Assembly (NCBI GenBank): GCA_021162745.1
Contig: JAGGYC010000113.1
Coordinates: 75,476-109,610 of the forward strand
Source: Desulfuromonas sp.
GTDB taxonomy: Bacteria > Desulfobacterota > Desulfuromonadia > Desulfuromonadales > Desulfuromonadaceae
Reading direction: 5' to 3'
Length of the DNA stretch: 34,135 bases
Under the pieces are notes generated by a model. That model saw only the letters and a program-made list of their open reading frames with translations. It was not told the DNA's origin and made no database searches. Position numbers and translations under genes: made by a program. Shown piece after piece: positions 2,572 through 34,135 of the stretch. Numbering within the stretch: position 1 is the stretch's first letter; each line of letters opens with the position of its first letter.

Positions 2572-3798
2572 TTAGCCACCGAAGTCGTCAAACATGATGT
2601 TCTCACGTTCAACACCCTGCTCCATGAGCATGTCGGTGACCGCGTTAGCCATCATTGGGGGACCGCACATGTAGTATTCGCAGTCCTCAGGAGCTTCATG
2701 ATCCTTGATGTACTCATCGTACATAACGGTGTGGATAAAGCCAACCGGGCCGGTCCAGTTGTCTTCCGGCGTGGGGTCGGACAGCGCACAGTGCCAAGTG
2801 AAGTTAGGATACTTCTCTTGCAGTCCATTGAGTTCTTCGACGTAGAACATCTCTTTAGCACTACGTGCACCGTAAAAGTAAACCATCTTACGCTTGGTGT
2901 CCAAACGCAGCAGCTGGTCAAGGATGTGGGAACGCATCGGAGCCATACCGGCACCACCACCGATAAAGACCATTTCATTTTCGGTCTCACGGGCGAAGAA
3001 CTCACCGTAAGGACCGGAAATAGTGACCTTGTCGCCGGGCTTGAGGTTAAAGATGAATGAAGACATCTGTCCCGGAGGGGCATCAGGCGCATTTGGCGGT
3101 GGAGGACATACACGCACGTTGAGCATGATGATCCCTTTTTCAAGCGGGAAGCTCGCCATGGAGTAGGCACGCATGATCGGTTCTTTAACCACCGACTTGT
3201 TGTCCCAGATGTTGAACTTGTCCCAGTCCTCGCGGTACTCTTCTTCGATATCGAATTCAGAGTAGGACAGCTCGTGAGCAGGGGCCTCGATCTGAATGTA
3301 ACCACCAGCGCGGAAATCACAATCCTCGCCTTCGGGCAGTTCGACAACCAGCTCCTTGATAAAGGTTGCTTTACCGTCGTTGGATTTAACGGTGCATTCC
3401 CATTTCTTGATGTCAAAAATTTCTGCCGGGATACCCAGCTTCATGTCCTGTTTGACACCTACCTGACAACCTAAGCGCAGACCCTCGCGGGCCTGACCCT
3501 TGGTGATGAAGCCTGTTTCTGTGGGCAGAATGTCACCGCCGCCCTCATAGACGTGAATATGACATTGACCACAGGTGCCACCGCCGCCACAGGCTGAAGG
3601 GATGAAGATCCCCTGCTCAGCCAGAGCGCCGAGCAATTTGCCGCCCGGTTTGGTGGTGATGGTTTTGCTTGGGTCATCGTTGATGAAAAATTGGATGTCA
3701 CCGCTAGGCACCAGACTCTTGCGCGCCAACAAAATGATGGCGACCAGAGTGAGGATGACTCCGGTGAACATGACGGATCCAGCTATTACTAAGTCCAT
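2572..3798 (-). CDS. nqrF: NqrF, NADH-oxidising subunit of Na+-NQR
   Basis: The 408-residue subunit takes electrons from NADH through FAD and a [2Fe-2S] cluster and passes them into the membrane complex. One N-terminal membrane helix (about 4-26) is followed by a plant-ferredoxin-type domain with C70, C76, C79 and C111. Next come the FAD-binding RAYSMAS (210-216) and NADH-binding parts: GGGAG (281-285), [17 protein letters not shown] and YYMCGPPMM near the C-terminus, ending in DDFGG as is usual. Length is standard. It is the last of the six structural genes, 34 bp after nqrE, and is followed by a long hairpin. All key residues appear present, so I expect a functional NADH entry site. Confidence 0.97.
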
Positions 3799-3832
3799 AG
3801 TATCAATCCTTATGATTCAAGTTACGGTGTCG

Positions 3833-4441
3833 TTAAAAACTCAGGCCGGAGAATGCCTTGAACGACATGGCCATCAAGCCAACGATGATGAAGGTGATGC
3901 CAACACCGCGTACCCCTTTAGGAACATCGCTGTAGGTCAGCTTCTCGCGAATACCGGCCAGCAGCATGATGGCGAGCGCAAAACCACAACCGACGCCAAC
4001 ACCGTAGACAGTACTTTCCACGACGTTGTAATCACGCTCGACCATAAAGAGAACGGCACCGAGAATGGCGCAGTTTACAGTGATCAGGGGGAGGAAAATA
4101 CCCAGCGCGTTATACAGTGCCGGCAGATACTTATCCAGTGCCATCTCCAGAATCTGTACGATAGCAGCGATAACGCCGATGTAGCAGATCAGGCCGAGAA
4201 AACTCAGATCCAGATCAGGGTAACCTGCCCAGGCCAGAGCCCCTTTCTTCAAGAGAAAAGTATAGAGCAGGTTGTTAACTGGAACTGTGATGAATTCAAC
4301 TGCGATAACTGCTGCACCAAGCATCATTGCGGTATCAACTTTTTTTGATACTGCAATGAAGGTACACATGCCCAAGAAGAAGGTCAGGGCGATGTTGTCG
4401 ATGAAGACCGAATTGAAAAATATTGTAAAATAATGAGCCAT
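3833..4441 (-). CDS. nqrE: NqrE, membrane subunit of Na+-NQR
   Basis: A 202-residue integral membrane protein with about six transmembrane helices, homologous to NqrD and RnfA/RnfE. It carries the two half-membrane cysteines of the family: C26 in [10 protein letters not shown] and one in TVNCAILG. In the Vibrio enzyme these, with the matching pair in NqrD, hold an intramembrane iron-sulfur centre. The gene is 11 bp downstream of nqrD and 34 bp upstream of nqrF. Length and both cysteine motifs are standard. Confidence 0.97.
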
Positions 4442-31862: not shown

Positions 31863-33215
31863 TCAGTGCGTGTACTGCATTACGACGGCCTCTGCGGCTT
31901 TTATCAATGGATACGCGGTGGGTGGAGCCGTCAACAACGGATGGGTGCCGATTTGAAATGTGAGCAGGGAACTGACGGTCATCCGGTTTTGAATCATCAA
32001 TCCGATCATATTGATCAGTTCACCGGTGGTCGCACCGCCGATAATTTCTCCGCCCAGAATCACTCCAGACTCATTGTCAACAATCAACTTGACCACCTGT
32101 TTATGCGTACCGGGCAGGGTTCCTGGATGCTTGTCCATCCCTTCGAAGGTTCCGGTACTTATGGTAAAACCCCTTTCTTTGGCCAAGGTTTCGGTGACTC
32201 CGGCGGCACCAAAAGCCGTACCGCCTATGCAGGTACAAAAAATTGAGATATTGCCTGTAAAAGATCGCAGGGTGGACAATTTATACAGATTCATGCCAGC
32301 GATTCTTGCTTCGGCACAGGCCGCCGATGCCAGCATGACTCCCTTCAATGAACGGGTAATAAAGCTGTGTTTCTCCGCGCAGTCACCCACTGCAAAAATA
32401 TCTTCATTGGTGGTGGTGCGCATGTATTCATTTACTTCGATGAACCCCATATCATTGATTTTCAGGTCGGCTGTTTCAGCGAGTGTGACATTGGGGTGAT
32501 AGCCGGTTGACAGAATAACGGCATCGGCATCAATAGTTTCTCCGTTACTCAGCACAACCTTTTCGATCTTTTTATCGCCGATCAGCTCTTTTACCCGGCT
32601 GTTGCTTCTCACCAAAACACCTCTCGATTCGAGAAGCTCTTGGGCTTTGATTGCTAGTTCTGGATCAAAAGCAAGACTGAGTACGTGTGGCAGCATCTCA
32701 ACAATCGTGACATCTTTACCTGTTTTGTTAAGTTCATCGGCCATCTCAACACCGATAAAACCACCACCCAGAACCACGATTTTACTGAATCCGTCAAGAC
32801 GGTTGCCAAGTTGATCCAGATAGTTTTTATCTTTGGGAATGGTAAAAACATTTTCCAGCTCGGCTCCTTTGAGCCAACTAGGCCTTATAGGCTCCGATCC
32901 CGTTGCGATGACGGCTTTTTCAAACTCGATTTCCGATCCGTCAGCCAGTCGACATATCTTCTTGTCCTGATCCAGAGAAACGGCCTCACCGATTTTCAGT
33001 TCAACTCCGGCATTGCTTAACACCGCATCAGGAACAACATTCTGTTCACTACTTTCGAGGGAGCCGAAAATGTACGGAATACCGCATGGCACCAGCACCT
33101 TGACCTCTTTTCTCACCAGCGTGACTTTTTTATCCTTATGAAAAGCTTTGCCTGTTGTCGCCGCAACGATTCCTGCCGCACTTCCACCAATGACCAAAAT
33201 ATCTGTCTTTTCCAT
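31863..33215 (-). CDS. FAD-dependent NAD(P)H disulfide reductase (CoADR/NADH oxidase type)
   Basis: The 450-residue flavoenzyme has an N-terminal FAD site DILVIGGSAAGIVAA (5-19) and the single redox cysteine C44 in VPCGIPYIFG. This is the signature of coenzyme A-disulfide reductase, NADH oxidase/peroxidase and sulfur reductase. The NAD(P)H site is KIVVLGGGFIGVEMADEL, and the second FAD motif is NEDIFAVGDCAE. The dimerisation domain ends IGTHPLLTAPPTAYPLIKAAE. Likely substrates are CoA disulfide, polysulfide or oxygen; sulfur reduction would fit the suggested organism but is inference. A CTC pair (IFCTCIGG) in the C-terminal domain is unusual to my knowledge. The ATG at 33215 has a very good AGGAGGG; an upstream in-frame ATG at 33269 is less likely. 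No rhodanese domain is fused. Confidence 0.88.
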   Translation of the reverse strand: MEKTDILVIGGSAAGIVAATTGKAFHKDKKVTLVRKEVKVLVPCGIPYIFGSLESSEQNVVPDAVLSNAGVELKIGEAVSLDQDKKICRLADGSEIEFEKAVIATGSEPIRPSWLKGAELENVFTIPKDKNYLDQLGNRLDGFSKIVVLGGGFIGVEMADELNKTGKDVTIVEMLPHVLSLAFDPELAIKAQELLESRGVLVRSNSRVKELIGDKKIEKVVLSNGETIDADAVILSTGYHPNVTLAETADLKINDMGFIEVNEYMRTTTNEDIFAVGDCAEKHSFITRSLKGVMLASAACAEARIAGMNLYKLSTLRSFTGNISIFCTCIGGTAFGAAGVTETLAKERGFTISTGTFEGMDKHPGTLPGTHKQVVKLIVDNESGVILGGEIIGGATTGELINMIGLMIQNRMTVSSLLTFQIGTHPLLTAPPTAYPLIKAAEAVVMQYTH

Positions 33216-33269
33216 TGCGCTACCCTCCTGTTTTATCAGTTGCACCGTCTCTGCAATTTCAGTGTTCAT

Positions 33270-33621
33270 CCAGTTTGTTGCAAATTTCCAGTCCTGTCAA
33301 ATTACCACGCAAGGTGGACCATGTTCATAAGTTAGTACATTAAGAATTTTTTGCAATCATTTCCACGTAGCACCTCATATCACTGATGGGTCGCAGTGCG
33401 TTTGAATTGCGTAAAAGAGGATGGTTATAAAATTCTGGTCGTGCAAAAGTGCTTGAATGATCAGTGTGTTGGGTTTTTCAGCAGGTCAGCGGATTGGAGT
33501 TTTTTTCAGTGAGTCAACAGCGTCCCGTCGCTTTTCGAAATATTGCAACATAAGACCTGACCCCGTTACTGACCTGGGCTGCGAAAAGTGCCAATAATGT
33601 TGGTCTCGCAAAAACGAATTA
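33270..33621. other. Gene-free stretch upstream of the FAD enzyme
   Basis: About 350 bp without a supportable gene. On the minus strand TTGACA (33300-33295) is a possible -35 for the FAD enzyme, but the -10 is poor. At about 33536-33567 there is a CGAAATATTGCAACATAAG block followed by ACCTGACCCCG; from memory AGACCTGACCCC-type motifs occur at ends of REP-transposase elements, which would fit the transposase remnant to the right. Confidence 0.35.
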
Positions 33622-33748
33622 GATGGCTAAGCAAAAATTTCGACCTACAAGGCGTAGTGGTTTTTCAAGGGTGAAGGCATACATGTTGTATGTCGAAGTC
33701 TTGAAAAAACGCTGCAACGCAGGAGGGCGGACTTTTTGCTTAGCCATC
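33622..33748. repeat. 127-bp palindromic fold-back element
   Basis: The ends are a perfect 16-bp inverted repeat, GATGGCTAAGCAAAAA (33622-33637) and its complement (33733-33748). The interior continues as an imperfect palindrome with TTTTTCAA/TTGAAAAA and a CATAC/GTATG pair (33678-33682, 33688-33692) centred exactly on the midpoint, 33685. It encodes no protein and has the form of a MITE or REP-derived element. Its right end abuts the transposase remnant. Confidence 0.8.
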
Positions 33749-34135
33749 AAAGTTCAATCATCGCCATAAACGATCCGGCCACCTGTTTCAGAATCGTTAC
33801 AAATCAATCATCTGTCAGGACGATCTCTATCTGCTGGAACTGATCCGTTATATTCACCTGAATCCATTGAGGGCGGGATTGGTTCAATCTTTCGAAGACT
33901 TGTCCTCTTGCCCCGATAGCGGTCACCGGCAGCTGCTCGGCAAATCAGAATCGGGCATTGTTGCTGCGGATGAGGTGCTGTCGCTGTTCGGCAAAAAACA
34001 ATCAACGGCCCGAAAACACTATGCTGCATTTATTGCCGATGGTGTGGATCAAGGCAAGCGGCCAGAGTTGGTCGGGGGAGGGTTGGTGCGTAGCTTGATC
34101 GGTCAGGTGGAACAGGCGGGGTGTGCCATTGATTA
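33744..34135 (+). pseudogene. 5'-truncated REP-associated Y1-type transposase, runs off window
   Basis: The frame reads FNHRHKRSGHLFQNRYKS, then DDLYLLELIRYIHLNPLRAGLV, and later RPELVGGGLVRSLIGQ. These are the C-terminal segments of REP-associated (IS200/IS605-like) transposases. The N-terminal region with the HUH metal motif (expected before FNHRH) is absent. An in-frame TAG at 33741 closes the frame inside the adjoining palindrome. The start is therefore lost, probably by insertion or deletion at the palindromic element. The 3' end continues beyond the window. The remaining 130 codons are open, so the event may be recent. Confidence 0.85.

Follow-up and report, generated by a model that had tools for sequence, protein, structure and literature searches.

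A palindromic repeat beside a truncated transposase

The window, by which we mean the whole stretch of 34,135 nucleotides analysed here, ends where its contig ends (C36, 109,610 bases). Its right-hand part holds an oxidoreductase gene, a palindromic repeat and, opening immediately right of the repeat as the preliminary description had said, a REP-associated tyrosine transposase frame starting PSKFNHRHKRSGHLFQNRYK, which reaches the window end (Table 1). Contig C148 overlaps the window end by exactly 127 bases, and there the sequence past the end carries the rest of the frame (C148:3-500) through to a stop codon. Just past this stop, two copies of TTATGAACGTCCCGCCGATTTTT were seen (G000:C148:503-549, L055), possibly a transposase-associated edge repeat.

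Table 1. Features around the repeat, in window positions.
Feature	Position	Strand	Remark
27-nt sequence ending AAGACCTGACCCC	33538..33564	+	also inverted at both edges of the C67 REP-transposase gene
Left flanking 6-mer AATAAT	33593..33598	+	matches the right flank at the C144 end (orphan MITE half), not that of this copy
MITE copy, whole element, 150 bp	33599..33748	+	36 own-genome loci aligned; outer end backed by the target duplications that further copies carry
Outer 5′ terminal repeat GTTGGTCTCGCAAAAA, one substitution from the consensus GATGGTCTCGCAAAAA	33599..33614	+	
Internal 5′ repeat GATGGCTAAGCAAAAA	33622..33637	+	the "terminal" arm of the preliminary description
3′ terminal arm TTTTTGCTTAGCCATC, rewritten (usually TTTTTGCGACGCCATC)	33733..33748	+	
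Right flanking 6-mer AAAGTT	33749..33754	+	within the transposase frame
C-terminal part of REP-associated tyrosine transposase (KFNHRHKRSGHLFQNRYK..., with YIHLNP)	33750..34135	+	runs off the contig end

The repeat had been described as a 127-bp palindrome with a 16-bp terminal repeat. The arms GATGGCTAAGCAAAAA and TTTTTGCTTAGCCATC are indeed a perfect 16-bp inverted match, 127 bp from end to end, and the fold is strong, but the 5′ arm is internal. In the alignment, most copies of the same genome begin 23 bp outside that boundary with GATGGTCTCGCAAAAA and finish with TTTTTGCGACGCCATC. The element is 150 bp long and the 127 bp are its inner portion; the outer boundary is real because target duplications accompany the outer end and not the inner start. 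In their usual form the terminal inverted repeats, GATGGTCTCGCAAAAA and GATGGCGTCGCAAAAA, are identical at 14 of 16 positions. With these repeats, family-level target duplication and multiple dispersed copies, and with a size of 150 bp without a transposase gene (below 500 bp, as for MITEs), the element is a non-autonomous MITE. The same properties bear out the earlier view of the repeat as MITE-like. A minimal MITE of 58 bp, with both ends, a short core and ATGTGT on either side by eye, lies at G000:C21:24482-24539 (L051).

An open frame, MAKQKFRPTR...FCDAI, crosses the element (window 33622-33748; positions 3728-4129 of reversed C144). A coding role was rejected, as indels of 1-2 nt near the frame start shift the frame in several divergent rows of the alignment. 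The frame can continue into adjacent genes, where an annotation might falsely take it for a protein or an N-terminal extension. A search of 33300-34135 for known RNAs gave no Rfam match (E up to 1).

Copies, target duplications and hairpin

The preliminary description had called for a genome-wide count of the palindrome, and the element is far from unique, so that the absence elsewhere named there as a refutation does not apply. The search of its own genome returned 39 alignments, in which some places appear twice, and gave 36 loci with a copy or a piece, 33 of which aligned over at least 120 nt; the 36 are loci and not insertions, some being halves at contig ends. MITE matches were found in 24 of the 58 genomes searched, own included (E 0.001), and a pattern scan of named genomes recovered the usual 3′ end in at least 113 stretches. 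Among 83 sites from the first 80 of these stretches, 22 match the MITE over less than 110 nt, several of these 22 being cut by a contig end. Going by record titles, most hosts among the matches listed are MAGs of Desulfuromonadales, Desulfuromonadaceae, Desulfuromusa, Pelobacter, Geobacteraceae and Desulfobulbaceae. Three outliers, single MAGs of Chloroflexi, Bacteroidales and Sideroxydans, may be binning errors. Plasmids and phages gave no match to a related copy, L152 (E 1e-3), and viral contigs none to one exact MITE pattern. The element is common in sulfur- and metal-reducing bacteria and crosses families.

Target duplications could be scored for 27 of the 36 copies in the own genome, the remaining nine being without a readable flank. 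At least 6 bases matched in 14 of the 27 copies and at least 5 bases in 18, compared with 1.3 % and 7.7 % of 702 crossed left-right pairs. The scoring seems to misplace at least two ends (L024 and L046), whose duplications look good by eye. Of 133 sites in other genomes, 29 without the internal repeat and one more were left unscored; copies with the outer end matched at 6 bases or more in 55 of 83 cases (0.4 % of 6806 crossed pairs), whereas none of the 20 copies with the inner start only had a 6-bp duplication and one had 5 of 6. The duplicated target is 6 bp, sometimes 7, and often has the form A....T. The family, its ends and its duplications are directly observed.

The sequence 33599-33750 folds far better than its shuffles, with z-scores of -8.2 as DNA and -8.0 as RNA, and none of the 200 shuffles was as good in either case. 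We examined the predicted 41-pair hairpin in an alignment of the window copy with 23 others; 24 of 104 met the divergence filter, and one of these, L250, was left out because it has a deletion. Every row except that of the window was required to have the usual 3′ end, so that its conservation is by construction. In these 24 divergent copies, standard pairs occupy 94.0 % of cells against 87.0 % in shuffled and 35-45 % in slid controls, a percentage favoured by predicting the structure from the same alignment on which it was tested. Pairs changed on both sides number 17 of 41 (shuffled mean 9.6, slid 5-10), and for covariation the score is 0.286, against 0.148 in shuffled and 0.055-0.075 in slid controls. 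In the central helix (columns 45-51 with 83-89) all seven pairs show compensated changes.

The 3′ arm in the window ends GCTTAGCCATC, the exact complement of the internal repeat, where the usual reading is GCGACGCCATC, found in 179 matches in the loci examined, duplicates included. Searched as an exact pattern in the loci examined, the perfectly matching 3′ variant is confined to the window (C36) and the end of contig C137. The perfect 16-bp palindrome arose when the 3′ arm was rewritten with the internal 5′ repeat, presumably by template switching in the hairpin. Selection on the fold and copying from arm to arm both predict compensated changes. We tentatively propose that the family in Desulfuromonadales and Desulfobulbaceae keeps a long hairpin while its stem changes, through selection on a folded strand or through template-switch rewriting of the arms, and that the window and C137 copies would be an instance of such rewriting. 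A selected folded strand would be either RNA or single-stranded DNA during transposition.

Similar elements are known from other bacteria. Chunjie-1, a MITE of Geobacter uraniireducens (Chen et al. 2008), is 235 bp long and has 37 further copies of 178-235 bp, according to PMC10969869. Chunjie is, like the window element, a MITE of a metal-reducing bacterium of the old Deltaproteobacteria with tens of mostly intergenic copies, terminal repeats and flanking direct repeats, but with 178-235 bp it is longer than the approximately 150 bp found here, a comparison made by description only (PMC10969869). The Correia/NEMIS elements of Neisseria also have approximately 100-200 bp, terminal repeats, a hairpin and no transposase of their own (in part from PMC10969869), but they live in different hosts and are likened here by description, not by sequence. 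Among the papers listed on MITEs in Desulfo- and Geobacter-type hosts, on target duplications, ISDol1 and Chunjie, no title or opening of an abstract describes the window element. We consider it a probably new MITE family of a familiar type, set apart from Chunjie by its length.

The transposase remnant and a putative mobilising enzyme

Judged from its sequence, the frame beside the MITE is the C-terminal part of a REP-associated tyrosine transposase, and the HUH part is missing at the window. The remnant matched positions 96-142 of the 146 in NF047646 with 33.7 bits, below the 80-bit cut-off, and had no Pfam match. It aligns with intact homologues from residue 90 of 333 (L074) or 112 of 364 (L077), both approximately 62 % identical; its relatives are 43-78 % identical overall, and the first five rows from other genomes 59-63 %. 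Three full-length relatives all matched PF01797 above cut-off and scored 68.5, 56 and 80.7 bits against NF047646, only the last passing its cut-off. Transposases of this type combine an HUH motif and a catalytic tyrosine in one gene; the remnant has the tyrosine region YIHLNP, whose tyrosine we take to be the catalytic one, and not both parts. The residues preceding the junction in most intact homologues read NHFHLLL...FMRRLLTGYAVSF, and those in L077 RRLLTGYSVKF.

The absence of the N-terminal HUH half beside the remnant, claimed from the start, was confirmed: no HxH or other N-terminal part, and no intact N-terminus upstream, was found in 33000-33600 (best tblastn E 0.16). The search for the N-terminal half covered 277.7 kb of loci from the own genome, with overlaps counted separately and the loci of its other six Y1 genes left out, and returned only the intact C141 gene and chance matches (best E 0.031, 16 residues). 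A Y1_Tnp search of the genome gave seven matches, and the gene of the remnant or its missing half was not among them. Besides the intact C141 gene, the own-genome stretches tested contain no such N-terminal half and no left partner with a transposase N-terminus ending AAAGTT. The N-terminal half may simply lie elsewhere.

The repeat adjoins the transposase, forms a hairpin and is multi-copy, and the preliminary description had seen in it a REP/REPIN-type substrate of the neighbouring tyrosine transposase. We regard this as highly improbable. The element duplicates 6 bp of its target, and Y1/HUH transposases are not known to make target duplications. None of 36 other Y1/REP-transposase loci (108.6 kb) contains a MITE copy. 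With presence of the transposase defined as a close homologue of the window transposase at E 1e-20, 16 of the 58 genomes have both MITE and transposase, 8 the MITE only, 19 the transposase only and 15 neither (Fisher p 0.43), so that 8 of the 24 MITE-bearing genomes are without such a homologue. The REP-transposase gene on C67 has different edge sequences; on either side of it stand, in inverted orientation, copies of a 27-29 nt sequence that is unlike the MITE ends and finishes with AAGACCTGACCCC. These 13 bases have four exact copies in the genome, one of them at 33552-33564. REP/REPIN systems share with the window element hairpin repeats and a RAYT-type gene next door, but REPs are palindromes of 20-40 bp, usually in more than 100 copies, according to PMC2817692, PMC3116915 and PMC3733652, against 150 bp, 36 loci and target duplications here. 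At sequence level, the 36 loci and 58 genomes also suggest no link to a cognate RAYT. The idea of an own substrate is unsupported because of the 6-bp duplications, the empty Y1/REP loci and the lack of association at the genome level.

The MITE would rather be moved in trans by a putative cut-and-paste (DDE-type) transposase, which would recognise GATGG...TCGCAAAAA ends and duplicate 6 bp, sometimes 7 bp, of the target. We looked for the autonomous partner as a transposase-bearing inward pair of ends 350-3200 bp apart and found none in the loci examined. L160 is a partly repeated MITE, L272 is an 843-bp pair without a recognisable transposase, and L197 has two MITE ends around a gene that is not transposase-like in translation. 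This last locus (L197:96-1806, JAUWLU010000034.1) is a possible composite, with 1.7 kb between two inverted MITE 3′ ends and a longest frame that resembles a ThiF-type enzyme in translation. The IS1595-type gene on C126 begins within the remnant of a MITE terminus, but its ends are distinct (CCTGATAAGCACTAATCTTCCGCC and counterpart, by eye), and it was rejected as the partner. It is a decayed transposase with an in-frame stop, and its left end lies approximately 20 nt inside the MITE-like end GATGGTTTCGCAAAAA (G000:C126:30854-31836, L110); C102:414 resembles this arrangement. A repeat starting GATGGYCTCGCAAAATCC is present at three contig ends (G000:C94:46160-46345, C149:12768-12892 and C57:1-88) and may be one end of an autonomous element, the body of which is missing from the bin. 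The end frame of this repeat, 33 residues long, belongs to no Pfam family by search, and its single plasmid match, at E 5, is irrelevant.

Origin of the junction

The copy in the window has no target duplication. Its flanks, AATAAT and AAAGTT, are identical at 3 of 6 positions, which is the commonest score of unrelated flanks (31 % of crossed pairs; 4 of 6 in 23 %). AATAAT, the left flank in the window, recurs as the right flank of an orphan MITE half that lies at the end of contig C144. Both this match and the mismatch of the flanks are direct observations. The flanks at the C31 and C137 ends are both AACTGT. A resolved copy, C21:37924, is likewise unmatched (AATTTT and AACTGT, 4 of 6); because its right flank is also AACTGT, it is a possible partner of C31, and the pairing of C31 with C137 is not unique. 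If C31 and C137 are the halves of one AACTGT insertion, the rewritten element seems to have moved after the rewriting. The window MITE is identical to the end copies of C31, C137 and C144 over 124, 123 and 115 nt, and the C144 end is identical to the C21 copy over 126 nt.

In our best explanation, to which we give a probability of roughly two in three, the window junction joins the halves of two insertions across near-identical MITEs, with the assembler as the most likely cause and real recombination as the less likely one. It is favoured because the window copy lacks a duplication and its left 6-mer is that of the C144 orphan. One MITE copy would have landed in the middle of a REP-associated tyrosine transposase gene (at KF in ...LLTGYAVKFN...), whose downstream part would now stand to the right of the window MITE. 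The left half of the window MITE and its left flank would come from another copy (target AATAAT), the right half of which would stand at the C144 end. The preliminary description had the element truncating the gene; this is half borne out, as the MITE 3′ end does lie within the frame but the left side has the look of a separate insertion. Since the 3′ end sits within the frame, a MITE insertion into the transposase gene probably happened, whether the join is a misjoin or a recombination.

A misjoin and a real recombination between MITEs would leave the same bases in the assembly sequence analysed here. Two MITEs may have recombined by inversion or exchange, joining the oxidoreductase side to the transposase side and parting the transposase from its N-terminus. 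We consider this rather unlikely, although the unmatched flanks fit it, copies up to 100 % identical over more than 120 nt are sufficient for homologous recombination, and neither reading supplies a left partner for the transposase. Direct neighbours in one assembly graph should overlap by 127 bases, as C36 and C148 alone do; the dangling MITE ends have 97-126 nt in common with one another and with the window copy, which speaks against a misjoin and for recombination. However, a simple deletion would remove the C144 flank, which is still in the assembly, and the unmatched C36 and C21 copies share long identical stretches with the three dangling halves, as in an assembly tangle. The identical stretches of 97-126 nt and the two unmatched resolved copies together resemble a repeat tangle in which the left part of C36 was led into the wrong exit.

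A single MITE insertion into the transposase gene, followed by an adjacent deletion of the N-terminal half, appears improbable. It would account for the right junction within the transposase frame, and 34 bp to the left of the MITE is the 27-nt edge sequence associated with transposases, so that such a unit may once have stood there. In comparison with C67, however, the orientation of this sequence is that of a right-hand edge and not that of the left edge of the unit to which the remnant belongs, and the AATAAT flank of the C144 half would then be a coincidence (approximately 1.3 % per pair, from the crossed pairs).

Several results also weigh against the joining of two insertion halves. A left partner with the transposase N-terminus and AAAGTT is missing, the C31-C137 pairing is ambiguous, and the loci examined contain no autonomous element having the MITE ends. 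The oxidoreductase gene on the left is 83 % and 80 % identical in the two closest relatives having it (G003 and G013), and the gene order around it in these genomes does not favour C144 over C148 or the reverse. The flank on C144 resembles an intron. When the left part of C36 was joined to C144 as a query, the matches in the best 20 of 86 plasmid records began at base 68 or later, so that these introns did not extend into the left flank of the MITE in the window. The left flank alone gave chance matches only. The group II intron-like sequence itself lies beside the AATAAT flank at G000:C144:13926-14077 (L281) and matched RF00029 with 32.6 bits, below the gathering threshold of 40.

These results dispose of an apparent case in which a REP transposase was lost to its own substrate, and they warn that junctions inside MITEs of draft genomes need a check of the target duplications. 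For the family itself, a covarying MITE offers many natural arm pairs on which selection can be tested against template-switch copying.
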